This document shows positions 6,001 to 54,032 of a DNA stretch of 64,000 nucleotides, in pieces (position 1 is the stretch's first letter; the number at the start of each line of letters is the position of its first letter). The notes below the pieces were generated by a model that had not been told where the DNA came from, did not search any database, and saw only the letters and a list, made by a program, of their open reading frames with translations. Source of the stretch: Indolivaga capnocytophagoides DSM 22835 (lineage in GTDB: Bacteria; Bacteroidota; Bacteroidia; Bacteroidales; Dysgonomonadaceae); contig NZ_KE384530.1 in assembly GCF_000426485.1 (NCBI RefSeq), forward strand, positions 168,829 to 232,828, given 5' to 3'. A program made the position numbers and the translations under genes.

Positions 6001-7506
6001 AGCGAGTATATTCGGTTGATCGAAACGGATTGCATCCGTAACATCGAGAGTGAAAGTGGTACGTCCTCCTGCATGATATCCTACTTTCTGATTGTTTAGG
6101 TATACAGTAGCATACGAACCTACACCTTCGAAAAACAAAAAGTATCGTTTGCCTTCGCCTTCATTTTTTGCATCAAATGTTTTTCTGTACCAAGAATATC
6201 CGTGTAGGTTTCCATGTTTCAAACGACGAACCCCTTCGTACTGATCCCAATTGTGAGGAACATTCACTTTTGTCCATTTCGAATCGTCAAAATTGAGAGA
6301 TTCAAAACCTGTCATTGCATTTTTGTCTGTTTCGTTTACGGTTGTTTTCCAACCATTATTTAAAGATGTTTCTTTTCTGAAAGTTTCTTTATCGGGTTTA
6401 GGAAAACGAACAAGACTTCGTCCCATATCTTTCGATGTGGCAACAGCTATTGCACGTTGATCATCGTTATTTACCGCACAGTAAAAGTGATATACAACAT
6501 CGTTCCATTTAACTACATACGATTTATGAGCAAACAGATTATCGTATTTTTCGGTAGGAATAATCAGATCATCACCATCCCAGTCTGTCCAATTAATCAA
6601 ATCATAGGAGCAAGCAAATGTATTGAAGGCTTTGTAAGTACGGGTTTTGTGAAATGCCCCGAAATAGAACATTACGTATAAATCGCCGATTTGCTGTATA
6701 ACTCCATCACCTGTAATGCCTTGTTCGTGATTGACAATCGGATTGCCGTGATAGCGTTTCCAATGTACCATATCGTCCGATAGGGCAATACCGATTCTTT
6801 CTGCTTTAACGTTATTCGAGGGGTTAATTCCTCCTGCATTATAGAACATAACGAACGGGTGTCCTAAGCGTTTTGTTTTATCCCAGATAACGGATGATTT
6901 GTATTGTGTTATATTTTCCCACCATCCTTTGTTCGGATCAAGAGGTGATAATCTCGGTTTTTCAAAGCTTTTCCATTCATGAGCTTTTGTAATATCTCCA
7001 TCGGTATAAGCCATTCCTTCTTCGAGGCGACCTTGTTCGTAACCTTTACCGATACCTCCGAAGTATGACATCCAATATTTATTGTCGAATTTTTCGACAT
7101 TGTAGTTACCTCCCCATTGATAATCGACAAGGGCTATGTATCCTGCCCTTTGGTTTTCATCCCAACGTCCACTTCCTTTTTCAGGAAAAGATAATATCCG
7201 TCCCAATGTTTTCCATTCGAGCAGATCGTTGCTTTCGGCAAGCCATGTTTCGTAGCCTCGACCGTCTTTTCCTGTTTTTCCGTTATAAACAATATACGAC
7301 ATGTACCATTTTCCATCTTTTCGAAAAACGGTAGGGCAGTCGATTTTGTGCATATTATCCTCGGGAGCGATTACAAGCCCGTATTTATAAGGAGTTTTGA
7401 CTTCCTCATATACTTTATTCATAACATCTTTAGCTACTGTTTTCTGAGCGAAAACAGCAACTAAAGAAATAAAGTACAGAAGTATGATTGAAGATATTTT
7501 TTTCAT
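3058..7506 (-). CDS. GH137 beta-L-arabinofuranosidase / GH2 beta-glucuronidase fusion (BT0996-like)
   Basis: A 1482-residue secreted protein (signal peptide 1-20, AVFAQ). Residues about 35-385 form a five-bladed-propeller-type glycosidase domain resembling GH137; Glu157 (GYEQGR) and Glu236 (KAERIG) lie near the catalytic positions I recall for BT0996. Residues about 395-1060 are a GH2 enzyme with sugar-binding domain (PHNWDQYEG), acid/base Glu790 in GLQNES and nucleophile Glu860 in NGEYGAW. A malectin-like domain follows (about 1078-1245, RVNCGGDNF), then a C-terminal beta-sandwich resembling CBM6/35. In Bacteroides thetaiotaomicron the same fusion removes a terminal beta-L-arabinofuranose from chain B and glucuronic acid from chain A of RG-II. 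Specificity here is by homology of architecture; sequence identity was not measured. Confidence 0.85.
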   Translation of the reverse strand: MKKISSIILLYFISLVAVFAQKTVAKDVMNKVYEEVKTPYKYGLVIAPEDNMHKIDCPTVFRKDGKWYMSYIVYNGKTGKDGRGYETWLAESNDLLEWKTLGRILSFPEKGSGRWDENQRAGYIALVDYQWGGNYNVEKFDNKYWMSYFGGIGKGYEQGRLEEGMAYTDGDITKAHEWKSFEKPRLSPLDPNKGWWENITQYKSSVIWDKTKRLGHPFVMFYNAGGINPSNNVKAERIGIALSDDMVHWKRYHGNPIVNHEQGITGDGVIQQIGDLYVMFYFGAFHKTRTYKAFNTFACSYDLINWTDWDGDDLIIPTEKYDNLFAHKSYVVKWNDVVYHFYCAVNNDDQRAIAVATSKDMGRSLVRFPKPDKETFRKETSLNNGWKTTVNETDKNAMTGFESLNFDDSKWTKVNVPHNWDQYEGVRRLKHGNLHGYSWYRKTFDAKNEGEGKRYFLFFEGVGSYATVYLNNQKVGYHAGGRTTFTLDVTDAIRFDQPNILAVQADHPPMISDLPWVCGGCSSEWGFSEGSQPMGIFRPVTLVVSNDVRIEPFGVHAWNDKPQITATDKTFSLNVDTEIKNYTNNQRKIEIIQKLVNTENIQIKRVTDTIILKPNETRTIKQIGTEIVNPILWDTENPYLYKLITMIKENGKIIDQETTPYGFRWISWPIYRNDGDNRFYLNGKPVFLNGVCEYEHILGNSHAFSDDQIISRVEQMKAAGFNAFRDAHQPHNLLYQNLWEKNGTLLWTQLSAHVWYDTPEFRENFKNNLREWVKERRSSPAVVLWGLQNESVLPKDFAEECTAIIREIDPTSPTQRLVTTCNGGDGTDWNVVQNWSGTYSGDPYKYNQELSKKDQLLNGEYGAWRSIDLHTEGGFIPDGKWSEDRMTALMEMKIRMAEQVRDSVCGQFQWIYSSHDNPGRIQNDEAFRDIDRIGPFNYKGLVTPWEEPLDVYYMYRSNYVLKEKSPMVYIVSHTWNDRWTERGIKNGITVYSNCDEVELFNDVKSISLGKRTRNGIGTHFTWDNVNIRYNVLYAIGYVNGKAVTEDYIVMENLPKSPNFGQLYKDVQNVTQPQPDYNYIYRVNCGGDNFSDENGNLWMTDVHKVKGDYWGSLSWTDDFGNLPDFLASQRRTKDPIDGTKDWQLFQTFRFGREKLKYQFPLPNGEYLIELYFIEPWWGTDRSMNCEGFRTFDIAVNKDTVIKNLDIWKEAGHDKVLKKSVKGIVKNGMLEISFPRINTGQAIVSAIAIASTDKNIKGKPASPSLILNVTGGTHKHWADTGNDFTSLPAQLYGAEWIKKETNTNPISFTISKDADIYQKVDTGFVKTSCKAGERLNLNSEYIFAVPQIEWPAEPNLRPEISLEAESAVTKGKWDKVTIRKKEGVKAIGKATHSISWTMSPGLAGVYALRFKYINTTNQPITAKIQILSSDNRVMRESEIQFPSAPEKWRMISTTTGEYINAGHYQVVISGDNLEGLAFDALDVQ

Positions 7507-7520
7507 GAGATAAGTGTTAG

Positions 7521-7535
7521 GGTCTCAGACCTTAA
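7521..7535 (-). repeat. Solo palindromic tip after GH138
   Basis: GGTCTCAGACC followed by TTAA; read leftward it starts in the GH138 stop codon. The rest of the 90-bp repeat is missing. Confidence 0.65.
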
Positions 7536-10204
7536 TAAAATAACCAGTCTATCTTGCTCGATTCGCCTTCGCCACCGAAACCGGCATTACGAGGGTCTAT
7601 TTTCTGATTGGCATTTGTGAAACCGAGTATCAGGGCAGCTCCTTTGCCCAAAGACAATGTGTTGGTTCCCGCAGGGAATGTGTAGGTATGAATATTAACC
7701 GAAGCTCTGCCCGGAACATCTATAGCATTAGCAATCTTAACATCGCCTTGACCGAACTCGTTTGCACTGGCATCGGTTTCGAGAGTAGGTGCTTTGGCAT
7801 ATTCTTTACGTTCGGTGTTAAAATAACCGACCAATACATTTACAGGCTCTTTTGAAGTGAAGGTGATAGATGTGCCGTTTTTAGCTTGTTCGTCCATACT
7901 CAAACGCATTAGCTTCATGTTTTTCAATTCTTCGGCAAAGTCTCCAAATACGTAAGTTTGATTCGAAAATACTTTATCTCCTTTTTTGATAGGATAAGTA
8001 GGAACATTACCGGAGATAGTTACTTGAGCAGGGGTCAGAATTTCTATTTTAGTGTTTTGTCCTCCATGTTTTTTAATAAACTCTATATTCTTTTCGAAAT
8101 TTGCTAATTCAGCCTCGAAAGCAGGAAGCAGTTCAGCCCATGTTTTATTCTTAGCATCATCGCCTCCGATAGGAATACGACGTTGAGCCGTTTGCATACT
8201 ATTAGCATACAGATAAGTATCTTTAGTCAGATCAACCAGTTTGCGATAATGTTCGAGACTCGTTTTGATGTATGGAACAGCCTTGTCCAAATCCGAAATA
8301 TCTTGCGAATGGGTATAACGAAGTATTTGCATTGATGCTTCTACTTTAGCAGCAAAGAAATCGGCAAATTCGCGATAGCAGTATATATCATTTTTCAGAC
8401 GGTTGAACTCGTCTTTGTTTTTAGTTACTTTCGATGCTGCTTTGTCTATTGCTTCTACAGCAGCCTTGCCATGTGCAACCGCTTCTGAAATCAACTGAGG
8501 AGGTGTTTCTCCGATGTGAGGTTGTTTACTCCACTCTTTGTTTATATATTCGATAAGCATTTCACCTTCAGGTCCGCATGATTCGTGAAATCCCGGATAT
8601 ACTTTCCATTTTGCCGGATTAACTAATTGGCTGAGGAACATTCCCAATAAGAATGTCTGTCTGTTTCCTTCTGTAATACCGAATTTACGGGTCAGTTTCG
8701 GAGATATTTCTCCGGCTTGTTCGTAAGCATCAAGAATGTATTTTCCGGCATCGCCGCATCCGTACATATCGCCAAGCTGATTTGTCCAGTATTTGATTTC
8801 GCTATCTCTGTCCAGTGATTCGTTCCATGCATATCTGGCCCATGCCTTGTACCAAATCCAGTCGCGATCCATTTCTAATAAACGAGGATCGCTTTTGTCA
8901 GCCGTATAAGGCCAATCCCAATAAGATGCTTGAGGGTATAAATGCAGGGCATTAGCTCCGTGTATGTTATGCATTGCTTGCACGCATTTTTGAATAAAGT
9001 CAGGAGATCCGAATCTGAATGGTTCAAGATTAGCTAGGATATGTACATTCGAAATATGTATTGATCCGAGGCTGCTCAAGTCAGTATGAATTTTAGACCA
9101 CGACCCTCTCGGTTGATATGTTGTCAACGATTCGCCATTGTATTTATGCATAGTGTACAGGTTATGATATATGGGTAAAGCTGCATCCATAACCATTTTA
9201 GCATCTGTATCGTGAGCACGAACAACGATAGGAGGTTCTTCGGTACGCCCCAAAGCTTTAAGTCCGTCTTGTACTCCCGGAATAATTGTTTTAGTGAACC
9301 AGTTTACATCATCTTCATAGGTATCCATTGCTTCTCCAAGACATACTAATAATCCTACATTTGGATATTTTTCGATAAATGCAGCAACAGATTTTCTGGT
9401 ATAGTCAGAAAGTAGGGGTGTGATAGGACGGCTGCGATCTTGAGTCTTTATATTGTAATGCTCGGCAAAAGGTTTAGACACTATAATATTGTAGAACATC
9501 TGAATAACCCAAATACCTCGTTTTTCGGCTTCAGTAGTCAAGAAGGCATACATTTCTTCGTTCTTCTTAAAAGTTTCTTCATCTACTTCTACAGCAAAAG
9601 GATAATCGTTTAACTTAACTAATGAAGCAAAAGGATGACCGTTCCATAAATACAGTGAGTTGTACTTATTTTCAGCCATCATATCCAAATACTTTATCCA
9701 TAGATTTTTGTCGTAAAACCAAGGGAATGTTTCTTCAGTATATGGATATTCATATACGGTACGTTCCGGCAGATAGTATGGTTTTTGCACCCCGATACAA
9801 GTCCCGCGCAAAACCATGTGAGGCTTTTCGGTGGTATTGATATCCAAGGGAAGTTTTTTATTATCTTTTATTGCACTTATAATATCCATACATCCATATA
9901 ATGCTCCGGATGCATCATTTCCAATAATCGATATTTTTTTGTCTTTGCTCGAAATGGTGTATCCTTCTTTAGCAAGAGAATCGGTTTTATTTTCCGAAAC
10001 AGATATTAAGATTCCTGTACGTTCGTCAGCCGAAGTATTAATTTTTACGTCATACTTAGCCGCTTCTAAAGCCGCTTTTAATTTATCTACTCCGTACGTT
10101 ATTCGCGTCGAAGGGTTTTCTTCTACTACAATCGTTACTTTCTCCTGTGCACACGAGAGAAATAAGATTGAACATAAAACTGTAAATAGTAATCTGATAT
10201 TCAT
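7532..10204 (-). CDS. GH138 alpha-D-galacturonidase (RG-II chain A)
   Basis: An 890-residue lipoprotein: the signal ends LFLSCAQ with lipobox Cys18. An N-terminal alpha/beta domain (about 24-125), of the kind seen before GH20/GH115-type barrels, precedes a TIM barrel and an alpha-helical C-terminal part. Glu291 (CLGEAMD) and Glu358 (KYNGESL) are 67 residues apart, the spacing I recall for catalytic Glu294 and Glu361 of the characterised GH138 enzyme BPA0997, which cuts the alpha-1,2 galacturonic acid on the chain A rhamnose. The stop codon TAA is immediately followed by a GGTCTCAGACC palindrome, 15 bp before the next ATG. The family call is made from recalled motifs, not from a search. Confidence 0.83.
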   Translation of the reverse strand: MNIRLLFTVLCSILFLSCAQEKVTIVVEENPSTRITYGVDKLKAALEAAKYDVKINTSADERTGILISVSENKTDSLAKEGYTISSKDKKISIIGNDASGALYGCMDIISAIKDNKKLPLDINTTEKPHMVLRGTCIGVQKPYYLPERTVYEYPYTEETFPWFYDKNLWIKYLDMMAENKYNSLYLWNGHPFASLVKLNDYPFAVEVDEETFKKNEEMYAFLTTEAEKRGIWVIQMFYNIIVSKPFAEHYNIKTQDRSRPITPLLSDYTRKSVAAFIEKYPNVGLLVCLGEAMDTYEDDVNWFTKTIIPGVQDGLKALGRTEEPPIVVRAHDTDAKMVMDAALPIYHNLYTMHKYNGESLTTYQPRGSWSKIHTDLSSLGSIHISNVHILANLEPFRFGSPDFIQKCVQAMHNIHGANALHLYPQASYWDWPYTADKSDPRLLEMDRDWIWYKAWARYAWNESLDRDSEIKYWTNQLGDMYGCGDAGKYILDAYEQAGEISPKLTRKFGITEGNRQTFLLGMFLSQLVNPAKWKVYPGFHESCGPEGEMLIEYINKEWSKQPHIGETPPQLISEAVAHGKAAVEAIDKAASKVTKNKDEFNRLKNDIYCYREFADFFAAKVEASMQILRYTHSQDISDLDKAVPYIKTSLEHYRKLVDLTKDTYLYANSMQTAQRRIPIGGDDAKNKTWAELLPAFEAELANFEKNIEFIKKHGGQNTKIEILTPAQVTISGNVPTYPIKKGDKVFSNQTYVFGDFAEELKNMKLMRLSMDEQAKNGTSITFTSKEPVNVLVGYFNTERKEYAKAPTLETDASANEFGQGDVKIANAIDVPGRASVNIHTYTFPAGTNTLSLGKGAALILGFTNANQKIDPRNAGFGGEGESSKIDWLFY

Positions 10205-10249: not shown

Positions 10250-10344
10250 TTAAGTAACAGAAAGTATTTAATGTCGCATTTTAAAGTTATAACTATCAAT
10301 TGCTGTTATACTTGGATGGACAATAAATAGGTCTGAGACCTTAA
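10250..10344 (-). repeat. Palindrome-tipped intergenic repeat, copy E
   Basis: Read on the minus strand it begins TTAAGGTCTCAGACC, contains GACATTAAATACTT and ends CTGTTACTTAA. The first bases supply the stop codon of the GH78 gene. Confidence 0.85.
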
Positions 10345-12506
10345 AATTTTCCTGTGATCTTATAATCACCTTTATTAGCTAAAATTTTGATTCGGTATTT
10401 ATTTTTCGAAATATTTTCGATGGTTCCTTGATTGCTTTTTGGTTTGGATGTGCTTTCGAAGGACAAGTAGCCTTCACCTTCGCTTGCCGATACTGTGATG
10501 TTTTTTCTATCCATACGCACTTTAATATCTCCGTTAGGAGTCGGTACTGAACCTTCCATCCATTGCAAATCACCCAATACAGGAGTGATGGCAAATTCTT
10601 TGTAACCTTCTTTTAGAGGTTTTACCCCTATATAGTATTTGCCAAGCAGATAAATGGGGCTTGCCCCCCATGCATGACAAAGGCTTTTGCCGAAAGGACG
10701 TCCGTACATGGCTAAATGTTGAGTACCGGTTTCATTCGGATTGTATTTTTCCCAGAAAGAAGTTGCTCCCAGATTGACCATACCTCCCCAATAGTCGCGC
10801 ATTTCTTTCAGTACAAAGTCTTGTTCGCCAAGCTTACATAAAGCCTCTAATTCGTAGAAGCGCATATAAGGAGTTGTTATCTTTAAAGCATTTGGGTTAA
10901 GTAATACACTTTGTTTTACTTGTTCGGTTTTTTCGGTATCGAGATAACCTAAAAGAACAGCAAACATATTGGTATAAGGTGTAACTTGTTTGCTTTGAAC
11001 ACCATTTTCGCGATTGTGGACAAATGCTTGCTGACTCTCAGACCAGAATGCCGAGAATAGTTTTGATTTAATTTCTGATGCCAATTCTGCATATTTTCTT
11101 TTGCCTTCGTCATCTTTCATTATTTCTGCACATATTGACATTGTTTCCAAGCTGCGACAGAAAAGTAATTGTTCGAAGCTAAGTTCTCCGCTCTTACTCA
11201 TCTTGAAGTCTGCCCAATCGAGAAATACCCAATCACCCGAAAGACCTTCCATCAATCCATTTTTATTTCTCCGTGAAAGACAGAAGTCCATCAGGCTTTG
11301 CATACGGGGATAAAATTGTTTAACAAATTCTTCATCACCTGTATATTGTAAATAGTCATAGATTCCCATAAACCAGTAAAATGTATAATCCATAATGGTA
11401 TTTATATGGCTGGTCACAGGATCTTTACCCCTAAGATTAAGCATAGTTCGTGTTACAGAAGGAGAGTCAAAAAACAGGTAGTAATTCATCAGATAGCTTT
11501 GATAAGCATCGCCGCTCCAGACCCAGCGATCGCGTTTGATTCCATCAATGAAAAATTCACGGGAGGTAAGGTGCATAGTATATGCTGATATGTCCCATAT
11601 CTGATTAATAAGATTATCGTTGCATTTAAATGATCCTCTGTATTCGAGAGGCAGATACTCATATAACATAAATACAGTATCGAACACTACATTTTCATCT
11701 TTTTCGATATAGATATAGCGGAATGCTTTAGAACCGGGAGCTGTAAAGCCTTTTGCTTCGGGATTCTTTATATCAAAAAAATCGAGGGTTTCGCAGGTTT
11801 CTTTAGTTAAGGCTTCTTCGGGTGATTCGCCATAATAGACATACAACTTTCCTAATCCTTTCAGATTTTTGAATTGAATGAAACCGAATGTTTCTTTTCC
11901 AAAGTCAACAAGTAGTCCATTATCTTTAGGTTCTGTTTTAACAGCATCCAATGGTATTGTCTCTAATTTGAATTTAGAAGGAGGCGTATCGATGTTATTG
12001 AAGTTCCACGATCCGGCATTGAGGTATACTGTACCTGACGATGTATCGGATGCTTTACCCGATTCGTCAATCCATTCTTTGTCTTCGAATGTTACCTGCC
12101 ATGTATTATCCGAACCGAATGTTTCGCCTTGTACATATACCGATGGCACATTCGCCTGATTATGTACTTTTATATTCAGACTGTGTTTTCCTTCTGGAAT
12201 AGTAATATTAGATGGATTGCCTGTCAATAATTTCCCATCTAGTTTTACATTATATTGACCTTCTACAGCAATGGTTACCTTCTCAGTCTTTACTAAATCT
12301 AGTTTCTTAGAAAATTCGACCAATACATAATGGCTGTCCATTTTCCAAAAAGGAGGAAAAAATGCACCTCGTTCGGTACGTCGGTTTTGCATATCGTTGC
12401 CCAGCCATATTTCAAAATCGCCTGGGTAGTATATCCATGTAGCTTTTTGTGCAAATATGCCGGAAACGGATACACAAAGCATAATTAATATTAGTTTATA
12501 TTTCAT
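10341..12506 (-). CDS. GH78-family alpha-L-rhamnosidase (BT1001-like)
   Basis: A 721-residue secreted protein with signal peptide ending SGIFAQ. It shows the rhamnosidase layout: N-terminal beta-sandwich domains (to about 290), an (alpha/alpha)6 barrel (about 300-620) and a C-terminal beta domain. The usual GH78 motif DxRDERxGWxGD reads DGIKRDRWVWSGDAYQS near residue 325, so the standard general-acid Glu of DER is absent; a divergent GH78 group in Bacteroidota PULs, including as I recall BT1001, has this form. The barrel C-terminus carries GATSFWEKYNP, where the catalytic base Glu of GH78 lies. It starts 4 bp after the GH141 stop. In RG-II breakdown this type removes rhamnose from a side chain; linkage is not readable from sequence. 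Confidence 0.8.
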   Translation of the reverse strand: MKYKLILIMLCVSVSGIFAQKATWIYYPGDFEIWLGNDMQNRRTERGAFFPPFWKMDSHYVLVEFSKKLDLVKTEKVTIAVEGQYNVKLDGKLLTGNPSNITIPEGKHSLNIKVHNQANVPSVYVQGETFGSDNTWQVTFEDKEWIDESGKASDTSSGTVYLNAGSWNFNNIDTPPSKFKLETIPLDAVKTEPKDNGLLVDFGKETFGFIQFKNLKGLGKLYVYYGESPEEALTKETCETLDFFDIKNPEAKGFTAPGSKAFRYIYIEKDENVVFDTVFMLYEYLPLEYRGSFKCNDNLINQIWDISAYTMHLTSREFFIDGIKRDRWVWSGDAYQSYLMNYYLFFDSPSVTRTMLNLRGKDPVTSHINTIMDYTFYWFMGIYDYLQYTGDEEFVKQFYPRMQSLMDFCLSRRNKNGLMEGLSGDWVFLDWADFKMSKSGELSFEQLLFCRSLETMSICAEIMKDDEGKRKYAELASEIKSKLFSAFWSESQQAFVHNRENGVQSKQVTPYTNMFAVLLGYLDTEKTEQVKQSVLLNPNALKITTPYMRFYELEALCKLGEQDFVLKEMRDYWGGMVNLGATSFWEKYNPNETGTQHLAMYGRPFGKSLCHAWGASPIYLLGKYYIGVKPLKEGYKEFAITPVLGDLQWMEGSVPTPNGDIKVRMDRKNITVSASEGEGYLSFESTSKPKSNQGTIENISKNKYRIKILANKGDYKITGKF

Positions 12507-12509
12507 GGT

Positions 12510-14342
12510 TCATAGACTTTTAAGGTGTTTGTATTCAGGTTTCAGTCCCGCCCTCGTTTTGATTGAATCGGCAACCATCGGACCATTGTTTTCCCAAGTA
12601 TTTCCCGGACCGTTTGCATTCTGTAGGAATTTTTCTTGAGGAGTCCAATTATCTTTTACTGTAATAAAAGAGCTGCCCTCGTCGGTATATAAGTAAAACC
12701 AATGCTGAGGATCGTGCACATACGAGGGGCTGTAAATATCTTCGACCCTATTTTCTGTGATGAACGATTTCGATTGTACCGAAAGAGTATATATGCCGGC
12801 TACATCATACATATGTTTACCATAATGATGTATATAGTTGGCATGTATTCTGTTGTTGCGCATACAATTAACAGTTTTAGTCCATCCCCATCCAAGGCTG
12901 ATACCTGTATATGATATCTCGCTGATCTCGTTGTGTTCGATATTGATGTCTGTAACAAATCCGGCACAGATGGCTACACATCCCCAATCTTCGTTGGCTA
13001 CATCGGTTATCAGATTATTCGATATAGTTTGATAAGAGCATAATTCTCTTTTGTCCGAAGGATCGTACGGTAAATGGCTCTCCATACCTATGTCAGACAT
13101 TTTACCTATTTGCATGGCATTGCCTGTAATATCCGAAAATGTACATCCATTAACAATATCGTATCGGGAAGCTGAAATGAAATCAATTCCACAAGAACCC
13201 AGATGTTGAAATTTACAGTTGTCGAAAAGGGTGTTTTCGGCAAATTCAACCATTACTGCTGCCGGAGGACTACCTATCCATGCTTGATTTTCTATCCCTT
13301 TATTCAAGTTTCCGTGTACTCCGGGTGGACGTAGTTTATAGCCGTCCAAAAGATACATTCCGGCTTGAAGAGGTACATGCCCTTTTTCGGATGGACGTGT
13401 CCATGTTGTATATCGAAAATCAATACCTTTGAATTGAATATGCTTAACAGGGCGGTCGATAGTTCCTTTTATATCTACTAGAGTTTCGAGTGTAGGAACA
13501 ATTACTTCGGCTGTTTTCATATCTTCTTCCGATCGGGGCAAATAATAAATTTTATTAGAATCGATATCGTGATACCATTCTCCCGGTTTATCGATTAACT
13601 GAAAAGCGTTAGTAAAATAAAAAGCAGAATTAAATCCCTCTTTTATCATAGGTTGAGGCCAAGGATGCTCAAACTGTATGCGAGCTTCTGGATTATGAAA
13701 TTTGATACCTGCCGAATCGCCTTGTACAACAATCGATTTAACCCGAAGGTTGGCAATAGCCCACATTTGATGGATGACTAACTCCAGATTCGGTGCATTT
13801 TCTAAACCTTTTACAGATGATGCAGGAACCCAAAGTGTTTCATTCTTTTTATCATTACTTCTGATTCTGTCCATTTTTTCGAAATCAGAAACATTACGAG
13901 CTCTGATTGCCTTGTTGCCGTTTACCCATAATTGCCTAAAGGTTATCCGATTACCATTGAATCGGGGAACTGAAGCTGTCCAGTATTTGCCTTCTTTTTT
14001 CCAGTTACTTATTTGCATACCTCCGCTTAAAACAGGTGTTCCGTTTATTGCTTCGATGATAGTTGGACTTGATTCTGTTCCCGAATCTTCGGGACGGATA
14101 AAGAGAGGTTCGTACAAATTGTAGGTACCTCCATTTACCTTAATATGTATTGCTTCATCTTTCTTTATCTTCGAAAGACGTCTGTACTCACGTGCTTCTC
14201 TTAGTGCTGCGTTTAATGTTGCTTTGGGTTTATTTTTACTGCCATCGTCAAAGTCATTGCCTTTGGTAGAGACATATATCTCTGCTCCTGATAATGCAAA
14301 AGCATAGCAGAATGCAAAGAGTGTATGTATATATTTAATCAT
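12510..14342 (-). CDS. GH141 alpha-L-fucosidase, right-handed beta-helix (BT1002-like)
   Basis: A 610-residue secreted protein (signal 1-19, ALSGAEIYVS). After the opening EIYVSTKGNDFDDGS, typical of beta-helix enzymes, it continues as a right-handed parallel beta-helix with repeated N/S/I turn patterns up to about residue 560. Length, start and the WENNGPMV / ADSIKTRAGL tail agree with the GH141 family founded by BT1002, which releases the L-fucose in the core of RG-II chain A. It sits between two GH78 genes, 46 bp after the triple-fusion gene and 3 bp before the next. It could in principle be another beta-helix glycosidase, but the RG-II context favours GH141. Catalytic residues were not assigned. 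Confidence 0.8.
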   Translation of the reverse strand: MIKYIHTLFAFCYAFALSGAEIYVSTKGNDFDDGSKNKPKATLNAALREAREYRRLSKIKKDEAIHIKVNGGTYNLYEPLFIRPEDSGTESSPTIIEAINGTPVLSGGMQISNWKKEGKYWTASVPRFNGNRITFRQLWVNGNKAIRARNVSDFEKMDRIRSNDKKNETLWVPASSVKGLENAPNLELVIHQMWAIANLRVKSIVVQGDSAGIKFHNPEARIQFEHPWPQPMIKEGFNSAFYFTNAFQLIDKPGEWYHDIDSNKIYYLPRSEEDMKTAEVIVPTLETLVDIKGTIDRPVKHIQFKGIDFRYTTWTRPSEKGHVPLQAGMYLLDGYKLRPPGVHGNLNKGIENQAWIGSPPAAVMVEFAENTLFDNCKFQHLGSCGIDFISASRYDIVNGCTFSDITGNAMQIGKMSDIGMESHLPYDPSDKRELCSYQTISNNLITDVANEDWGCVAICAGFVTDINIEHNEISEISYTGISLGWGWTKTVNCMRNNRIHANYIHHYGKHMYDVAGIYTLSVQSKSFITENRVEDIYSPSYVHDPQHWFYLYTDEGSSFITVKDNWTPQEKFLQNANGPGNTWENNGPMVADSIKTRAGLKPEYKHLKSL

Positions 14343-14388: not shown

Positions 14389-17300
14389 TTATTGGAATAC
14401 TTGCTTTAGGTATCGAACATTTGCTCCATAATTTTTCTTCACATTATGTACATCATTAGTGTCACGAGATCTTTCTACTACAAGCCAACCGCTCCATCCC
14501 ATTTTATCCAATGTCTTTTTTATTTCGGGCATATTGATTGCAGGATCGTTTTCTAACCAATACCCATCGGTGTTTGAAGCATGAATTTGAATGATACGAT
14601 CTTTACCCAGAGTTTTTAGATCTTTGATAATATTACCATTACGTTTAATAATACTCGAAAAGTTGACATAGCTTTTTATAGACGGAGAGTTTATTTTATC
14701 GATCAACTTTGCTTCTTCTTTAGCAGTCAAGGTAGTTTCGATACCGATAACTACTCCTGCAGATTCAGCTTTTTTAGCCACCACTTTCAGCCTTTCTACA
14801 ACCGTATTGTATAACTCGGGTTCTTTTACTAAATCGCTTTGATTACCCATTGGCAGAAAAGCTACTTTGATACCCATTGCTTTCATCGTAGCAATACATT
14901 CATCTATCAGTTGTTCGTAATTGTCTCTTTTGGCAAACGATTGCCCGTAAAAAGCCGACATAGCCAGAGAACTGTATTGTATACCTAACCGGTTACATTC
15001 GGCAATAAACATTTCCTGAAAATGCTTTTCCGTTAGTTTATTGTCAAAGCTGACGCGTTTACCTAAACCTCCCATATCAAGCTCAAGACCGTCTGCATTT
15101 AATGATTTAGCAAGCTCCATTGCCCCTACTTTTTGACGTTTCAGCATCATCCAGTCACAAACAGAAACTTTGTATCGTTGATTGTTTACCACTTGTATTT
15201 CTGCTGTTTCGGTAAGTGAAGGCCATTCCATGTTTTCGATCTTCGATAAAACTAATTTAGAAGGATCTACGACCACATGTTTAATGGCTTTACGTCTCCA
15301 TGTATAAACAATATGCACCAATCCGTCGGATGATTGAATAACTGATGGATATGAATATTGACTGATAGGTGAGTCTTCTAAAACTAAAGCTGCATACCAT
15401 ACTTTACCATCTTCGGATATTGCTACATTTAAAGGAGTTCTTAGTCCTTTACCCTTTTTCAGTGTATCATTGGGCAATACATGGTTATATACAAGCAATT
15501 GACGTCCGTCTTGTAATGTTACGGCATCTGTTCCCGAATTATTGTTGGGAAGCATCGTTGGTTTAAATTCTGACCAAGTTTTGCCATTGTCGGCAGACCA
15601 CGATTGTGCTATTGTTCGTTCCTGCGTTCTACACAGAATCTGCAATTTTCCATCAGGATAAGTAAGTACTGATGGTTGAATGGTATGTATTGATTTACCT
15701 TCGTTGATAGGACCTATCATAGACCATGTTTTGCCAAAGTCTTTAGTCACTTCAAGGTGAGTTCTCCAAGCTCCGCCTTCGGTACTCGATGGACAAATCA
15801 GTAATCCGTTTTTAAGGAGTACAGGTTTATTCTTTACAGGTCCGAGAAATCCTTCGGGTAGGTCTTTCGGTTCAGACCAAGAATAACCTCCATCGTTTGA
15901 TGTAATTACTTTTCCAATCCATCCTCCGACATTAGGTCCTACTTTGTAGTATAATTGAAGTTCACCATTTGGCACTTGATACAATACAGGATTCCAACAA
16001 GCATAGCGAAGAGTGTCATTCACGATTCCGTTTGCAACGTTTCTTGGTTCAGTCCATTTACCGTTTATATAGTGGCTTGTCCAGATACATACATCAGGGT
16101 TTCGTTCTTTTGTTCCGCCAAACCAAGAGGCTATTATTGATCCTTCTTTAGTTTCGGCAATGGTAGAAGCATGACTTTCGGGGAAAGACGGTTTTTCGCA
16201 AATAAATTCATCGGCAATAATACCCTCTCTCCAACGATCTTGTGCAACACCATATTTACAAGTAAATGAGTATTCGCCCGAGCCTATTTCGAGATTGATA
16301 CGTCCGTTTTCTTTCCGTACAAATTTTAACCCTTCTACATCAGTAATAGGTCTACCGTTTTCGGTAATGTCGTTTATTTCGGCAGCTGGTATAAGAATAT
16401 TAGCTCTACTATTAACAGGAATGGTAATCTTCCATGTAAAGATTCCTTTATTTAATGTCCAATCGCTTTCTACCAGACCATAAGGTGTGGTATGAGATGC
16501 TTTTGCCTGATTCAAATTTTCGGTTGGGGTAGGGTGCATCCACAACCACTTAAATCCTGTATGCGTTTCGTGGCTCTTGATTCCTGCAATATTCTCGTAC
16601 ATCCATGCAATAAGGTCGCCTAAAAGCATCACATGGTTTTGTGAATTCATTTTTGGGCTGGCTGTATTTCCATTCCACAGTTCCCATATAGTAGTTGCTC
16701 CGTTTTCGATCATATATCCCCATCCCGGATAATCTTTCTGAGTAGCAATAGTATATGCAACATCAGTACATCCTCGTTTCGACAGTTCACGCATTAACCA
16801 TTGAGTACCGATAACCCCTGTACTTATATGCAGTTTATCGTTCTGAACGATACGATACATCATATTCTTGAAAACACGATCTTCATTTTCCTTGTCTACA
16901 ATACCGAAAGTCAAAGGTAAAAGATTGGCTGTTACGGTATAATTGCTATATTGACCGGTTGCGTTATTATAAAATTTATTGTTGAAACCTGTGCGGATAT
17001 GATCAGCTAAGTTGACATATTGAGGTATATCACTCTCATGTCCGGCAATCTTAGCAAACTTTTGCATCAATTGCATGAAATAAAAATAATAAGCTGTTGA
17101 TATTAGTTCCCCATCTGTTTTTCGGGCAGGATCGAGAGAATGAATCAGTTCTTTTGATTCGGGCGGGACACACCAATCTCCGTATTTATCTTTGGTGACG
17201 ATGTAAGAAGTAGTCATATACTTACTCCTCATATATTCTAGCCATTGCTTCATAGAGGCATAATGACTTATAATAGGGTCGGCATTTCCTGTTTGACGGT

Positions 17301-19005
17301 ATATCATATCAGCCACCATCAGATAAGTACCGGGCCATGTCATATTATCACTGTAATATGTTTTGTAAAATCCGGGAGACATATCAGGAAGCTGTCCCGA
17401 TGGCATTTGTGATTGTTCTATATCATTTAACCATTTGGCATACAATCTGGTATTATCAAAAATATAGCTTTCTCCTAGCGAGCCCGTTGCCCTGTCTCCT
17501 AGCCAAGGCTGTCTTTCGTCCCGTTGAGGGCAATCTACAGGCATTCCTTTATAGTTACCTCTGATTCCCCAATATGCATTCTGATATATTTGATTCAATA
17601 GCTCATTCGAAGAGCTAAATTCACCGATTGTAGCCATATCATCGTATATGACCTTTCCTTCGAAATTGTCAATTGTAGGGATGCTTTGAAATCCTGTAAC
17701 TTCGGCATATCTGAATCCGTGATAAACAAACGATGGCTCCCATGTTTCAATACCCGAACCTTTCAGTATGTATGTATCAGTAGATAGGGCACTTCTTAAA
17801 TTATCACGCTTTAGGCGTCCATTATTATCTAATGATTCTGCAAAGCGGATAGTTATTTTACTTCCTCTATGTCCTTGTGCTTTCAGTTGAAGCCATCCGA
17901 CCATATTCTGACCCATATCGATAATGAAAGTATCTTTTGCTAAGGGTTTTACTCTTATAGGTTTCAGTACTTCTTTTATACGCATATTGTCGGTGATCTG
18001 AGCAATCAGACTGCCCGATGGAGCACTTACTACAGATGCTTTAGTCCATTTAGAATCATTGAAACTATTCAGATTCCAGTTCTGTAATTCTTTGGTAGCA
18101 TCGTAATCTTCACCGTCAAATTCATTATTTGATCGGATAGGTCCGTCAGATGTTACCTTCCAATTATTGTCGCTGTTGACAAACGATTTGCTGCCATCGG
18201 TATATTCTATTTCAAGCTGAAGTCGCATTTTAGGATAGCCGTAAGTTTTTACTTTATGCGGTTTAAAGTTTTGACGCATATTGTAATAGCGGCCATTTCC
18301 TAAAATAGTTGCAACAGTATTCGTTCCGTTTTTAATGAGTGATGTAACATCAAAAGTATTATAAGTAACAGATTTATCATAATCTGTAGGGACTGGGGCA
18401 AGAACTTGATTTCCAATCCGCTTACCGTTTATATAAAGTTCATACAGACCTAGCCCTGCAATATATACTTTAGCCGATTTTACAGTTTTGGCAGAGGTAA
18501 ATTCTTTTCTGAGGTAACGAGCCGATAGTCTCGAATGTTGAGTTTCGCTATCCCAAGGGAAAGCTTTATCTAGCCCGATCCATTGAGCAGCCCAATCGTT
18601 AGAATTAAGTAACCCTATTGAGAAATGAGACGGAGTACTCCATCCGCTATTTTCTTTATTGGTGGTAACTTTTACTGTCCAATAGACTATATCTCTCGAT
18701 TTAAGAGCTTTTCCCGCATATTTGACTAAAGTGGACTGATCGCTTTTGATGACTCCCGAATTCCATAAATCGGCATCTTTTTCGTTTAATTTTTCAGGGG
18801 AACTGGATGCTAATATCTGATAAGAAGTTTGTAGCGAGTTGCGCTCATTTGATTTTATGATCCAATTGAAGCGGGGAGTGGTAGTACTTATGCCCTCAGG
18901 ATTAGTCATTAATTCGCAACGTAAGTCTTTTATCTCAATCGCATGGACTGAGATAAAAAGACTTAGTGCACCCCAAAACAATATAATACGTTTGAAATTC
19001 ATCAT
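14389..19005 (-). CDS. Three-domain fusion: GH78 rhamnosidase / sialidase-like (GH33-type) / xylose-isomerase-like TIM barrel
   Basis: A single uninterrupted frame of 1538 residues with signal peptide 1-22. Residues about 24-915 are canonical GH78: DCPQRDERQPWLGD with acid Glu497, later TTIWELWNGN, and a C-terminal TTPYGLVES beta domain. Residues about 920-1265 are a BNR/sialidase-like six-bladed propeller with Asp boxes SNDGGYSW, TKDFGKTW and SADNGKTW. Residues about 1275-1538 are a sugar isomerase/epimerase-like TIM barrel starting YKVSVCDWMML, with GIETTL, QIHASNTDG and WLVVERS. RG-II side chain C is rhamnose-Kdo, and GH33 includes Kdo hydrolases, so the first two domains could strip that disaccharide in order (inference). 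The TIM barrel lacks the usual Asp/His of the metal site (VNFSSI), so an isomerase role is doubtful. Confidence 0.85.
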   Translation of the reverse strand: MMNFKRIILFWGALSLFISVHAIEIKDLRCELMTNPEGISTTTPRFNWIIKSNERNSLQTSYQILASSSPEKLNEKDADLWNSGVIKSDQSTLVKYAGKALKSRDIVYWTVKVTTNKENSGWSTPSHFSIGLLNSNDWAAQWIGLDKAFPWDSETQHSRLSARYLRKEFTSAKTVKSAKVYIAGLGLYELYINGKRIGNQVLAPVPTDYDKSVTYNTFDVTSLIKNGTNTVATILGNGRYYNMRQNFKPHKVKTYGYPKMRLQLEIEYTDGSKSFVNSDNNWKVTSDGPIRSNNEFDGEDYDATKELQNWNLNSFNDSKWTKASVVSAPSGSLIAQITDNMRIKEVLKPIRVKPLAKDTFIIDMGQNMVGWLQLKAQGHRGSKITIRFAESLDNNGRLKRDNLRSALSTDTYILKGSGIETWEPSFVYHGFRYAEVTGFQSIPTIDNFEGKVIYDDMATIGEFSSSNELLNQIYQNAYWGIRGNYKGMPVDCPQRDERQPWLGDRATGSLGESYIFDNTRLYAKWLNDIEQSQMPSGQLPDMSPGFYKTYYSDNMTWPGTYLMVADMIYRQTGNADPIISHYASMKQWLEYMRSKYMTTSYIVTKDKYGDWCVPPESKELIHSLDPARKTDGELISTAYYFYFMQLMQKFAKIAGHESDIPQYVNLADHIRTGFNNKFYNNATGQYSNYTVTANLLPLTFGIVDKENEDRVFKNMMYRIVQNDKLHISTGVIGTQWLMRELSKRGCTDVAYTIATQKDYPGWGYMIENGATTIWELWNGNTASPKMNSQNHVMLLGDLIAWMYENIAGIKSHETHTGFKWLWMHPTPTENLNQAKASHTTPYGLVESDWTLNKGIFTWKITIPVNSRANILIPAAEINDITENGRPITDVEGLKFVRKENGRINLEIGSGEYSFTCKYGVAQDRWREGIIADEFICEKPSFPESHASTIAETKEGSIIASWFGGTKERNPDVCIWTSHYINGKWTEPRNVANGIVNDTLRYACWNPVLYQVPNGELQLYYKVGPNVGGWIGKVITSNDGGYSWSEPKDLPEGFLGPVKNKPVLLKNGLLICPSSTEGGAWRTHLEVTKDFGKTWSMIGPINEGKSIHTIQPSVLTYPDGKLQILCRTQERTIAQSWSADNGKTWSEFKPTMLPNNNSGTDAVTLQDGRQLLVYNHVLPNDTLKKGKGLRTPLNVAISEDGKVWYAALVLEDSPISQYSYPSVIQSSDGLVHIVYTWRRKAIKHVVVDPSKLVLSKIENMEWPSLTETAEIQVVNNQRYKVSVCDWMMLKRQKVGAMELAKSLNADGLELDMGGLGKRVSFDNKLTEKHFQEMFIAECNRLGIQYSSLAMSAFYGQSFAKRDNYEQLIDECIATMKAMGIKVAFLPMGNQSDLVKEPELYNTVVERLKVVAKKAESAGVVIGIETTLTAKEEAKLIDKINSPSIKSYVNFSSIIKRNGNIIKDLKTLGKDRIIQIHASNTDGYWLENDPAINMPEIKKTLDKMGWSGWLVVERSRDTNDVHNVKKNYGANVRYLKQVFQ

Positions 19006-20451
19006 TTATTTTTTTTCTTGAAGATTGTCTTCTACATATGTTTTTGTTGCATCTGTAATGATCAGTACCCAATCGTTACCGGCTCTGTATCCCGAATCGT
19101 TGATGAAGTCTTTCGATCCGTTGTCGAATTCACCGATAAATTCAGTATGTCCATCAAGAGGACTATACCACCAAGCTTTTTTCTTAGTTCCGCTGATCTT
19201 GGTCATATCTATCTTGGTCAAACGGTTTGTATAGTTATATACTAAAATATAATCGTTACCTCTGGTTGCGATTACCCGTTCGTATTGTTTTCCATTGGTA
19301 TCGGCAATAATACTCTGATCGGGAATCCGTTCTGTAAAAGGAAAAGCCAACATTAATTTTTTCAGGTATTTCATTTGTAAACATCCCGGATCGTGCAGTG
19401 CATCCCACCAAGACTTTTTTGCACCAAAAGAAGCCAGATATCCGGGGCGCAGCATTTGCATAGTCGAATTGTGTCCGTATGTATGACCAAACGATCCTGC
19501 CAAAACAGACCAATATGCATATCGGCGTACATCTTCGGCTTGCCAATATCTTTCGCCCGAATTGTGCAATCCATGAGGAATATCTTCGTAAGCAGGTTCT
19601 CCGTCTATTACTGGTTTATGTGGAGATACAGCTAAACTGCTTTCAACAAATCGCCAGTTGTCTTCTTCGGTATTTTCTTCAATAGGATAATCTCCATCTC
19701 CGAACCTTTGTCCGTATCTGCGATGCCCTGATTGAAACATATTAAAATCTAACCAATCTTCGTTATTAAACCAAGTGGTAGAAGAGGTACGACCTCTGGG
19801 GTGGAATGTCATTAAGTGCTCGGAATCTTGTGCTCGTATTGTTTTAGCTAATGTTTGCCAAACTTCGGGTTGTACATCGCCACGAATATCACCTCCGATA
19901 AACCAGATTATGTTTGGGTACTTTTTGTATCTTTCTACCAGAAATGTTCCATATTTTTTAGCATCTTCAACTGTCATTAATTTTTCATTGACAGGACCTC
20001 CCCAAACACAAACAATGCCTACATATATTCCGCTTTTTTGAGCTCTTTCTACGATGTAGTCTATATGTTTCCAATAATTGTATTGACCTTTTTGATCTAT
20101 GTTTTTGAAATCAAAACCATTGGGTAAAGCCTCGTGTCCGTAAACATTCATAGCCGGAATAGTATGAAGTACTGATATTTGTAAAACATTATAATCATTT
20201 TTTTGAACTTCGGACATCAGAAAATCAACTTCGTCTCTATTCGATCTGGAAGGTAAAAGCCATGCTGTTTCTCCTAACCAGAAAAATGGTTTGCCATTGG
20301 CATGTTGTAAATAACGTTTATTGTCGCTGACAATTAATCTTCCATTGTCCCACGGTTTTTCTTTTTTCTTTTTATTGTTGTCCTGAGCTGTAATACTTAA
20401 AGATGCAGCTAAAGCAAAAAATAGAACTATATGTTTGGTAATAAATTTCAT
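19006..20451 (-). CDS. GH140 endo-apiosidase (DUF4038)
   Basis: A 481-residue secreted protein (signal 1-22, SITAQ) with a Lys-rich linker before the catalytic TIM barrel (DUF4038, about 36-375) and a C-terminal beta domain. Asp188 (FIGGDIRGD) and Glu285 (VIDGEPAYED) match, with an offset of one, the catalytic Asp187/Glu284 I recall for BT1012, the founding GH140 enzyme. That enzyme cuts the apiose-galacturonic acid bond that anchors RG-II side chains A and B to the backbone. The start follows the GH105 region by 4 bp and the stop abuts the next ATG, so translation is probably coupled. Confidence 0.92.
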   Translation of the reverse strand: MKFITKHIVLFFALAASLSITAQDNNKKKKEKPWDNGRLIVSDNKRYLQHANGKPFFWLGETAWLLPSRSNRDEVDFLMSEVQKNDYNVLQISVLHTIPAMNVYGHEALPNGFDFKNIDQKGQYNYWKHIDYIVERAQKSGIYVGIVCVWGGPVNEKLMTVEDAKKYGTFLVERYKKYPNIIWFIGGDIRGDVQPEVWQTLAKTIRAQDSEHLMTFHPRGRTSSTTWFNNEDWLDFNMFQSGHRRYGQRFGDGDYPIEENTEEDNWRFVESSLAVSPHKPVIDGEPAYEDIPHGLHNSGERYWQAEDVRRYAYWSVLAGSFGHTYGHNSTMQMLRPGYLASFGAKKSWWDALHDPGCLQMKYLKKLMLAFPFTERIPDQSIIADTNGKQYERVIATRGNDYILVYNYTNRLTKIDMTKISGTKKKAWWYSPLDGHTEFIGEFDNGSKDFINDSGYRAGNDWVLIITDATKTYVEDNLQEKK

Positions 20452-24243: not shown

Positions 24244-25653
24244 TTATTCTTTAATGATTTGGTACTCTTTCAGGACTTTTAATAAAGACTCTTTTCCTTT
24301 TATTGCATTTTTGGGGAGGTTTTCGCCTTTCTCTCCGAAAGCATACATTTCAGATTCTTTTTCGATGGTTACTTTGCTTTCGTCTATATTTCCGTCCGAA
24401 TCCGAAATACATTTCAAATCCAGATTGAAATGTTTTGCTATAAAACGGTACATTGCCAATCGTTTAGAAATCCCATAATCATGTCCTTCTTCGGGGAAGT
24501 GGGTATTTTCGATATTCTCTTCTGCTCCGTAAAATCCGTATATACGTTTGATGTAGGGCAGTTCCAATTCTGGAACATTCGCAGTCCAGTCTTTACCATC
24601 GGATAAGATAAGCTGGGGCTTGGGTGCAAACATCGCTGAAAGCTCTGCATTATTAGTCCTGTTTCCGCAAAGATGTGCCGGAAGACCGCTTTCGCAAGGA
24701 CACCCTCCGACAAAGTAGGATGAAGTCATAACAGTAGGTATGCTTAAAGTAATACGGTCGTCAATGGCTGAGACCATCATAGTCATGCTGCCACCACCCG
24801 ATCCCCCAGTGATGCCGACTTTGGTCTGATCTGCTTCTTTCAGCGATAGCATATAATCGAGTATGCGTAAGGTATTTAATGTTTGGATGGCATGAGCTGC
24901 ACTTAGCCGATGTAGAGTTCCATCGAATTGGAGAAGACTTTCCCCCCATGCGAACAGATCCCAACTGGCTGCTATTGCTCCCATACGGGCTTGCATAGCG
25001 CAGCGATTTTGCTGATCGGCTCTGTATCGCCCTTGTCCGAAATGTCCGTTAGGGTTTAATATAATCGGATATTGCTTCATTTTCAGGGAAGATTTGTATA
25101 TGGATCCGCACACATATATTCCCGGCAAAGTTTCCAATGCAAAGTTCTGAACAGTATATCCGTTGTATTTTCGTATCTTGGTTAAAATTATTTGTGTGCT
25201 TGGTTTGGTCGGCATTGGAGATAGCCCAAGTGCTGAAGGCAGGCAGGCTTTTAGTTGAGCCTTTCGTTGTTCCCAATCTGTTTTATTTGGATAGAGCAAA
25301 TTAAGATAATCGAGAAATTGCTTACCTTCCTCCGTAGTTGTTCGGGCGTATTCGAATGATTTGATTTTATACTTTCCGTTATCCATCGTGTATATATAAT
25401 CAAAAGGAGCAAGTACGGCTTTCAGAGTTTCTGTTACGCTCCACGGTTTGATTCTCCAATCTGCATAAGTGAGAACTTTCCCATCTATCATCTTTTGATC
25501 GTATTTGATTTTAATACCGAATTGGTGTTCTATATTATTCAAAACTTCAATCAATGGACGAGAGTAAAGGCTGTCTGCGTTTTGTGTCTGCGAAAATAGA
25601 CCGGAGATACAAATAAAAGATACGAAAATATATATGCACGCTTTTAGTTTCAT
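24244..25653 (-). CDS. CE19-type pectin methylesterase, alpha/beta hydrolase with STN-like N-terminal domain
   Basis: A 469-residue secreted protein (signal 1-21, GLFSQ). Residues about 25-105 ([19 protein letters not shown] and TETLKAVL) look like the short secretin/TonB N-terminal (STN/DUF4974) fold. The rest is an alpha/beta hydrolase: nucleophile Ser285 in [10 protein letters not shown], His391 in PEEGHDYG, and a Cys-rich strip [16 protein letters not shown]. This layout matches BT1017, which defined family CE19 and demethylates galacturonic acid of RG-II. Acetyl-esterase activity cannot be excluded from sequence. It is packed 6 bp after GH28 and 2 bp before GH95. Confidence 0.82.
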
Positions 25654-33763: not shown

Positions 33764-33780
33764 ATATAAAAAAGAAGAAT

Positions 33781-38421: not shown

Positions 38422-38435
38422 GAAGAAAGGATATT

Positions 38436-51885: not shown

Positions 51886-51928
51886 ATAACTCAATAAAAA
51901 TAAACCAGAACTTAACCTTCCTGAAAAT

Positions 51929-52945: not shown

Positions 52946-52949
52946 GTGT

Positions 52950-53873: not shown

Positions 53874-53929
53874 AAAAGACAGTAAGCTTGTTTACTGATG
53901 CATCAATTAAATGCTCTGAGATCTAAATT

Positions 53930-54022
53930 TTAAGCAATAGAAAGTATTTAATGACGGATTAAATTGATAACTGTCTGTTGTTTTTATACTTACAAAGTCA
54001 ATAAAAAGGTCAGAGACCTTAA
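53930..54022 (-). repeat. Palindrome-tipped intergenic repeat, copy F
   Basis: Read on the minus strand it begins TTAAGGTCTCTGACC, contains GTCATTAAATACTT and ends CTATTGCTTAA. It fills the gap between the lactonase and symporter genes, the tip 11 bp before the symporter ATG. Confidence 0.85.
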
Positions 54023-54032
54023 AATCTGTTCT

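Follow-up and report, generated by a model that had tools for sequence, protein, structure and literature searches.

A rhamnosidase, sialidase-fold and xylose-isomerase-like triple fusion in a rhamnogalacturonan-II locus of Indolivaga capnocytophagoides, and its probable role on side chain C

Side chain C of rhamnogalacturonan-II (RG-II) is rhamnose (Rha) linked to 3-deoxy-D-manno-octulosonic acid (Kdo) as Rha-alpha1,5-Kdo, and side chain D is arabinofuranose (Araf) linked to 3-deoxy-D-lyxo-heptulosarate (Dha) as Araf-beta1,5-Dha (PMC12282258). Among the glycoside hydrolase (GH) families, the Kdo hydrolase is placed under GH33 and the RG-II rhamnosidase under GH78 (PMC11214529; PMC9120202), and a pectin locus of Bacteroides xylanisolvens counts GH33 and GH78 among its families, without a statement as to whether one protein carries both (PMC4769552). 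A 'xylose isomerase-like TIM barrel' occurs with the BT1017-type methylesterase domain, according to a 2021 paper whose passages on it give the barrel no function (PMC7939467). Here we describe a 64,000-nucleotide stretch of Indolivaga capnocytophagoides DSM 22835 (contig NZ_KE384530.1, positions 168,829 to 232,828; hereafter the window), in which one gene encodes a GH78 region, a sialidase-like propeller (BNR) and a xylose-isomerase-like TIM barrel (ISO) in a single chain. The Kdo hydrolase of Bacteroides thetaiotaomicron reportedly also resides in a GH78/GH33 protein. A close counterpart in plan is the BT_1020-type enzyme (5mqr), which we take to be a GH142/GH143 protein acting on the Araf-Dha of chain D, and to be alike in role, pairing a sugar hydrolase with a propeller that handles a keto-deoxy sugar acid. 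This window encodes one such enzyme, but it is built from different families and has no isomerase-like barrel. The joining of BT1017-type methylesterase to a barrel is alike in attaching the same kind of barrel to an RG-II enzyme, and differs in that the partner there is an esterase and here a GH78-BNR pair.

We favor a reading of this protein, at a probability of roughly 0.6, as a fused-operon enzyme that is exported and works on side chain C. The GH78 part would take the terminal L-rhamnose off Rha-alpha1,5-Kdo, the GH33-like part, whose sialidase active site is modified, would next take Kdo off the galacturonan backbone, and ISO would act before uptake on the acidic product of the Kdo step, most likely released Kdo, by the isomerase/epimerase or dehydratase/hydratase chemistry of the xylose-isomerase-like superfamily. 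Sequence and predicted structure show the architecture, its conservation, the RG-II surroundings, the order of genes, the recurrence of fusion, the export-like starts of lone ISO copies and the retention or loss of individual catalytic residues. The parts of this reading that go beyond these stand at different strengths. That ISO is an enzyme of RG-II breakdown is very probable, the assignment of the fusion to chain C is likely, a Kdo-releasing role for BNR is on balance probable, and Kdo as the substrate of ISO is a tentative suggestion. Because the BT_1020-type enzyme for Araf-Dha is a separate gene of the window, Rha-Kdo would be the disaccharide left over, and because only the fusion, of 32 proteins of the window that were scanned, matches BNR_2 strongly, chain C falls most naturally to it. 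Those 32 come from 35 open reading frames (ORFs) of at least 150 aa, the other three lying at 41576-42040, 56811-57356 and 58234-58779; the BT_1020-type protein gives a weak BNR_2 match below the cut-off (26.3 bits), and no other Kdo candidate was seen among the 32.

The three-domain protein (P0001) is confirmed as real. Its 1538 residues occupy one stop-free frame on the minus strand at 14389-19005; the plus-strand reading of that interval has stops throughout. An earlier note on this DNA, made from the letters alone, had the coordinates and length of the continuous frame right, and the triple it proposed, of GH78, sialidase-like and isomerase-like parts, is borne out by Pfam, AlphaFold2 and comparison with the PDB. 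Pfam places Ig_Rha78A_N at residues 25-134, Bac_rhamnosid_N at 173-345, Bac_rhamnosid at 356-454, Bac_rhamnosid6H at 460-806 (E 2.7e-107) and Bac_rhamnosid_C at 808-882, so that all five members of the Rha78A-type set (Ig, N, concanavalin-like, 6-hairpin and C) exceed their cut-offs. These are followed by BNR_2 at 955-1232 (E 3e-92) and AP_endonuc_2, 'Xylose isomerase-like TIM barrel', at 1297-1535 (E 2.3e-23). Because the sole signal peptide, judged by eye, is N-terminal, joint export of all three domains is expected. The GH78 region matches 6i60 (E 3.3e-186) and SaRha78A, 3w5m (E 8.2e-142), and in the alignment to the latter its E497 falls on E636 and its E775 on E895, the residues that we take to be the catalytic acid and base. 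With its domain set and both catalytic Glu it resembles known GH78 alpha-L-rhamnosidases, from which it differs by two added C-terminal domains, and alpha-L-rhamnosidase function is predicted for it.

The possibility that the fusion is an artefact of assembly or annotation is negligible, and nothing in its favor was found. The earlier note had proposed looking for the same fusion elsewhere, and it recurs in two sets that share five genomes. In a search of 119 relatives plus the genome that holds the window (120 in all), the same three-domain frame is present and stop-free in eight relatives, at 71-74% identity and with open frames of 1537-1583 aa. In a contig scan with an ISO alignment, from which we kept the best 80 of at least 578 stretches encoding a relative, all three domains share one ORF at 18 loci, of which L081 and L086 reach a contig end. 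These 18 come from Dysgonomonas isolates and from metagenome-assembled genomes (MAGs) of Bacteroidales/Bacteroidetes, and the triple-fusion sequences form one group in a quick ISO tree of 60 rows, with a support of 99 in the Shimodaira-Hasegawa-like approximate likelihood ratio test (SH-aLRT). An assembly artefact is ruled out by this recurrence. Compared with the window protein, the eight orthologues are 82-90% identical in ISO, 76-84% in BNR and 51-73% in those parts of the GH78 region that follow the signal peptide, which leaves ISO the best conserved of the three domains; its conservation, together with the existence of stand-alone relatives, rules out ISO as a chance-acquired domain. In six of the 119 relatives, ISO is missing from the GH78-BNR frame, which is 1264-1294 aa long. 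One MAG encodes a still longer frame of 1864 residues (L077:5195-10789), GH140 apiosidase-GH78-BNR-ISO, in which an error is possible.

ISO almost always tracks RG-II degradation genes. Neighbors in the 80 ISO loci, several of which lie on short contigs, were called by blastp at no less than 40% identity over at least 100 aa to window proteins. Of seven marker families, one or more occur at 65 loci and two or more at 55, with GH95 and GH2 not being specific to RG-II; BNR is found at 60, GH78 at 55, the methylesterase at 33 and the BT_1020-type gene at 32. Across a phylum sample of 395 genomes (ISO and BNR at E 1e-50, the RG-II propeller PF24067 at E 1e-30), ISO occurs in 19, PF24067 in 21 and both in 19, and all 10 ISO genera are among the 12 PF24067 genera of 171 (hypergeometric p 2e-30 by genome and 1e-14 by genus, uncorrected for kinship, with nine of the 19 genomes belonging to one genus). 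PF24067 is present in one of 14 control genomes. BNR occurs in 39 genomes of the sample, including all 19 with ISO, where it scores above 510 bits in 18 and 439 bits in G395; the other 20 genomes, G649 with PF24067 among them, score at most 489 bits. The family of genome G235, another bacterial family, gives a further view. PF24067 is found in 11 of its 81 genomes, nine times in long BT1020-type frames (1104-1156 aa), and these nine genomes all have BNR (frames of 1264-1336 aa) and in seven cases ISO; the other two genomes with PF24067, outside these nine, have neither. GH78 before BNR is confirmed at four of eight loci of this family (L163-L166) and is only a guess from length in another six frames (1282-1336 aa). 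Outside this set, in G025, G014 and G049, GH78-BNR and a gene for ISO alone share a contig but lie 21-26 kb apart.

Of the 62 ISO loci outside the triple-fusion set, 42 have both BNR and ISO ORFs, and BNR lies zero to two genes upstream of ISO (zero being the same ORF) in 41 of these, with GH78 zero to two genes upstream of BNR or fused to it in 36. Common orders are BT_1020-type, GH78, BNR, ISO (10 loci), BT_1020-type, GH78-BNR, ISO (10), and GH78, BNR, methylesterase, ISO (6). On the ISO tree, BNR-ISO without GH78 appears on two branches besides that of the triple fusions, so that ISO-BNR fusion is seen on three branches overall; methylesterase-ISO is on up to three and ISO-DUF3826 on one. 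The reading that best fits these sequence data is that, in the triple protein, a conserved operon has been fused into a single chain.

The same loci hold the evidence for a possible alternative, to which we give appreciable weight, that ISO works on some other near-backbone product of RG-II (6-O-methyl-galacturonic acid or galacturonic acid, Dha, or apiose) and that its fusion to BNR only mirrors operon order. ISO is fused to a BT1017-type methylesterase at five of the 80 loci (L099, L101, L133, L143, L144) and to DUF3826 at L055, and a BT_1020-type gene lies in the covered DNA of 30 of the 62 non-triple loci; but BNR is nearer to ISO and more constant than these, both in gene order and in the number of branches with fusion. 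Because ISO is also fused to methylesterase and DUF3826, its link is with RG-II processing generally rather than with chain C alone. DUF3826-like stretches are joined to ISO (L055:8672-10123, 40% identity) and to BNR (L143:365-2065, 26%). BT1017 itself carries DUF3826 at its C-terminus (PMC7939467), so that DUF3826, methylesterase, BNR and ISO make up one fusion web. Literature searches listed nothing on a D-apiose isomerase as a role for ISO, and no paper on a 3-keto-glycoside pathway.

The earlier note took the BNR domain for a sialidase-like one and pointed to the Kdo hydrolases of GH33. Of this, the fold stands. The AlphaFold2 model (mean predicted local distance difference test score, pLDDT, 91.5) is a GH33 sialidase propeller whose nearest solved folds are sialidases (1w8o_A, Z 37.4, root-mean-square deviation 2.7 over 320 aligned residues; 15-18% identity), and Asp-box-like motifs can be made out by eye, Pfam BNR being below its cut-off. 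The active site is a different matter. We took residue equivalences from HMMER and HHalign profile alignments with NanB and eight Bacteroidota sialidases, rather than from superposition, over 58 BNR rows (the window and 57 of 68 stretches) and over L163-L170, eight of the 14 BNR-matched genomes in the family of G235. The Tyr nucleophile of GH33 is kept as Y1219 in 58/58 and 8/8, and R1126 and R1189 align with two Arg of the GH33 triad. The Glu that activates the Tyr is replaced by Gln (Q1110) in all 58 rows and all eight of the other family, and T1235 replaces a later conserved sialidase Glu in all 66 sequences. The RIP motif, which supplies the remaining triad Arg, is absent; where it would stand, aligned rows have H-A or H-S, with His (H945 in the window protein) in 58/58 and 8/8, a pairing counted by hand back from a shared 'EG', disregarding the three-residue gap that HHalign put there. 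Another Arg may fill the place of the RIP-motif Arg in space (in BNR numbering, R86 in 58/58, R54 in 52/58 and R324 in 58/58), and E967 (58/58) or D971 (57/58) could stand for the Asp acid/base, in a loop shorter than that of sialidases. Beside GH33 enzymes such as the Micromonospora sialidase (1w8o/1eus), BNR is thus alike in propeller (Z about 37), Asp-box-like motifs, Tyr and two triad Arg, but unlike in its His, Gln and Thr. As judged from alignment, it is a GH33-fold subgroup with altered machinery rather than a textbook GH33, and it would either release Kdo in another way or do something else. At four loci of G235's family (L167-L170), BNR lies in frames of about 800-1050 aa with no GH78 match in the covered stretch and with other fusion partners.

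If BNR does something else, the two domains might target a different linkage from Rha-Kdo, such as that of rhamnose in chain A or B, with BNR an inactive binding propeller. The missing RIP-motif Arg and helper Glu would fit this, as would the second GH78-type gene of the locus, but we consider it unlikely, given that 58/58 rows agree in the Tyr, in two Arg and in further polar residues, that the scanned window proteins offer no other Kdo candidate, and that the enzymes listed for RG-II include a Kdo hydrolase of GH33 and a rhamnosidase of GH78 (PMC11214529). Odd catalytic residues need not mean inactivity, because an Asn has been proposed as the non-canonical base of GH139, another RG-II family (PMC12282258). 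Release of Kdo by a non-hydrolytic route was considered because, besides the two missing residues, the best PDB sequence matches of BNR are NanB, NanC and anhydrosialidases. These enzymes are non-hydrolytic. BNR would then free an anhydro or unsaturated Kdo and ISO, whose superfamily includes a 3-keto-glycoside lyase (8tcr), would make usable Kdo from it, a two-step release outside known GH33 chemistry. The ranking by fold, in which hydrolytic sialidases come first, argues against this, and we regard it as very unlikely; if true, it would make ISO a new exported enzyme activity. The chain C fit proposed in the earlier note survives in its RG-II setting, in a GH78 with both Glu joined to a GH33 fold and in chain C as the likely target, and has to be amended in that BNR is not a plain GH33.

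For ISO, the barrel is secure. The AlphaFold2 model (mean pLDDT 96.1) has the xylose-isomerase-like TIM barrel fold of ketose 3-epimerases and UlaE, with Foldseek template modelling (TM) scores of up to 0.79 and of 0.70 to the 3-keto-glucoside 1,2-lyase AL1 (8tcr); structural comparison gives Z 26.3 to Art22 (8z1i) and 25.9 to UlaE, at 10-18% identity. A sequence search with nine rows found no solved relatives at E 0.001, and one with 60 rows found weak matches (best E 2.4e-05). The 60 ISO rows are made up of the window's own, 51 from the 80 scan loci and eight from the 13 matches of another search. Isomerases, epimerases, dehydratases and lyases all occur in this superfamily. By alignment to the D-tagatose 3-epimerase 8xix, metal-ligand positions 1, 3 and 4 are E1423, H1475 and E1511, and the second, Asp in ketose 3-epimerases, is N1448, so that the window protein has E-N-H-E for the usual E-D-H-E; Asn could still bind a metal. 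Compared with ketose 3-epimerases and UlaE (3cqi, 3cqj, 3vnj), AL1 and xylose isomerases, ISO shares the barrel and three of four metal-ligand positions, and differs in having Asn or Lys for the Asp ligand, in being exported and in sitting in RG-II loci. The rows with Lys at the second position are L040, L046, L119, L139, L142 and L146, three from Bacteroides/Phocaeicola and one from G235, with SusC near ISO in L040 and L139; Lys versus Asn is perhaps a functional split of the ISO family.

This metal site raises the question of whether ISO is a non-catalytic module, a substrate holder or scaffold with a decayed site. The second ligand is Asn in 54/60 rows and Lys in 6/60, and the first is changed in 4/60, but the first Glu is kept in 56/60 and the His and last Glu in 60/60. 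Twelve positions are invariant in 60/60 (in ISO numbering, D14, K19, R20, Q21, K22, D40, Q85, H205, D210, E241, R242 and R244), and in the model they cluster at, or a few residues past, the C-terminal ends of the strands, the active-site face of the fold. The strong conservation of ISO within the fusion also speaks against a mere scaffold, as do its stand-alone copies, which account for 55 of the 79 ISO ORFs in the 80 loci, and we find a non-catalytic role quite improbable. The five invariant Lys/Arg would suit an anionic substrate. By a simple pattern test of N-termini, 30 of the 55 stand-alone copies are Tat-like (twin-arginine translocation), 20 Sec-like (general secretion), 3 lipobox-like and 2 unclear, giving 53 with an export-like start, and ISO is by this measure an exported family. 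The Tat route is typical of proteins that are folded or loaded with metal before export, a further point against a non-catalytic role. An isomerase-like domain in a secreted enzyme had been thought unexpected, an impression that does not hold: since stand-alone copies nearly all have export-like N-termini, ISO in a secreted enzyme is normal, and the joining of a barrel to methylesterase was published in 2021.

Several observations weigh against the chain C reading and the tie of ISO to RG-II. The two catalytic features missing from BNR and the substituted metal ligands of ISO have been given above, as have the fusions of ISO to methylesterase and DUF3826. In addition, 15 of the 80 ISO loci have no marker in their covered DNA, and some separate genes counted as such on the tree may be split fusions rather than separate gains, the counts being of fewest changes. 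Nor is ISO required everywhere: two genomes of the phylum sample have PF24067 without it (G490 has none, and G649 a distant barrel at 146 bits), G868 and G893 of G235's family have PF24067 and BNR without ISO, and G007, G028 and G021 have GH78-BNR with no ISO match at E 1e-20. Finally, B. thetaiotaomicron is described as cleaving all but one RG-II linkage (PMC12282258).

The genes around the fusion (Table 1) make the window an RG-II locus, as the earlier note had supposed: RG-II enzyme families (NF049877, NF049878, GH140, GH141, BT_1020-type and BT1017-type genes) accompany a SusC/SusD pair. We take NF049878 to be GH138 and NF049877 to be GH2/GH137. Further window genes are of GH95, GH88/105, GH28 and DUF3826 type. 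The structure matched by the methylesterase, 6GOC, is BT1017 (PMC7939467).

Table 1. Coordinates, in the window, of the fusion, its domains and key residues, and of neighboring RG-II genes
Feature	Position	Strand	Basis
Whole ORF, GH78-BNR-ISO fusion, 1538 aa	14389..19005	-	Pfam; orthologous frames in relatives
Signal peptide, residues 1-22, hydrophobic, no lipobox	18940..19005	-	judged by eye
GH78 alpha-L-rhamnosidase (predicted), residues 23-905	16291..18939	-	Pfam; PDB sequence matches
E497, aligned with E636 of 3w5m	17515..17517	-	alignment
E775, aligned with E895 of 3w5m	16681..16683	-	alignment
BNR domain, GH33-like propeller, residues 915-1268	15202..16263	-	Pfam, AlphaFold2, PDB comparison
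H945, at the place of the RIP-motif Arg	16171..16173	-	hand count
Q1110, replacing the Tyr-activating Glu of GH33	15676..15678	-	profile alignment
Y1219, aligned with the GH33 Tyr nucleophile	15349..15351	-	profile alignment
ISO, xylose-isomerase-like TIM barrel, exported family, residues 1271-1538	14392..15195	-	Pfam, alignment, AlphaFold2
N1448, at the second metal-ligand position	14662..14664	-	alignment
Beta-D-glucuronidase/beta-L-arabinofuranosidase	3058..7506	-	NCBIfam NF049877, above cut-off
Alpha-D-galacturonidase	7532..10204	-	NCBIfam NF049878, above cut-off
Second GH78-type gene	10341..12506		Pfam
GH141-type gene (GH141_M)	12510..14342	-	Pfam
Apiosidase-type (GH140) gene; stop codon abuts the start codon of the fusion	19006..20451	-	Pfam
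BT1017-type RG-II pectin methylesterase	24244..25653	-	matches 6goc, E 2.9e-149
SusC/SusD pair of the locus	30341..35775	+	
BT_1020-type enzyme	42497..45832	+	Pfam Beta-prop_BT_1020; 5mqr matched over 25-1098

Other neighbors may bear on the fate of the released sugars. A Gfo/Idh/MocA oxidoreductase (17/80 ISO loci) and a sodium:solute symporter (21/80) recur, as at L115:13442-16119, where the two adjoin each other downstream of ISO and GH141; they may provide uptake and the next step for the ISO product. A cytoplasmic-type set of a dihydrodipicolinate synthase (DHDPS)-family aldolase, an iron-dependent alcohol dehydrogenase (Fe-ADH), PdxA and an SBD_N/NBD_C kinase lies beside RG-II genes, complete by blastp at five of the 80 ISO loci (L143:2080-7064, L077, L078, L093 and L112, with Pfam in agreement for L143 and L093) and in part at L053:370-2615 and L054:602-2784. 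Worked out by hand, a possible course for this set is from Dha to pyruvate and 4-oxo-threonate, and then by way of D-threonate and its 4-phosphate to dihydroxyacetone phosphate, which would amount to a putative route for Dha. A search of the genome to which the window belongs did not find the tetronate-type kinase family. A DUF6298 protein in the RG-II locus of the window (38418-41516), also present at 13 of the 80 ISO loci, is an orphan RG-II candidate. Near the end of the locus, at 50953-55295, an aldo/keto reductase, a Zn-dehydrogenase, an Amidohydro_2 protein and a major facilitator superfamily (MFS) transporter look like a non-phosphorylating route for a sugar of the L-fucose or L-galactose type.

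The earlier note knew of no precedent for the combination, which is partly so. The GH78-BNR-ISO combination is described nowhere in the literature we searched (titles and abstract openings), and no function for ISO was found there; PMC3243724 lacks the terms looked for, and PMC8002723 has a single passage of a general kind. But the joining of barrel and methylesterase is known, as is the GH78-BNR pair, which is not rare even without ISO given the six relatives and the four confirmed loci of G235's family. What is new is the third domain rather than the pair. The fusion is of interest because of ISO, which belongs to an exported family and is nearly always accompanied by genes for RG-II degradation. 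Its near one-to-one occurrence with PF24067 and its repeated fusion to RG-II enzymes suggest a step of RG-II breakdown without a known enzyme, and the triple fusion is the sharpest hint as to that step, which may be the handling of Kdo from chain C. The fusion also marks a GH33-fold subgroup whose changed catalytic residues allow a direct test of how Kdo is released.

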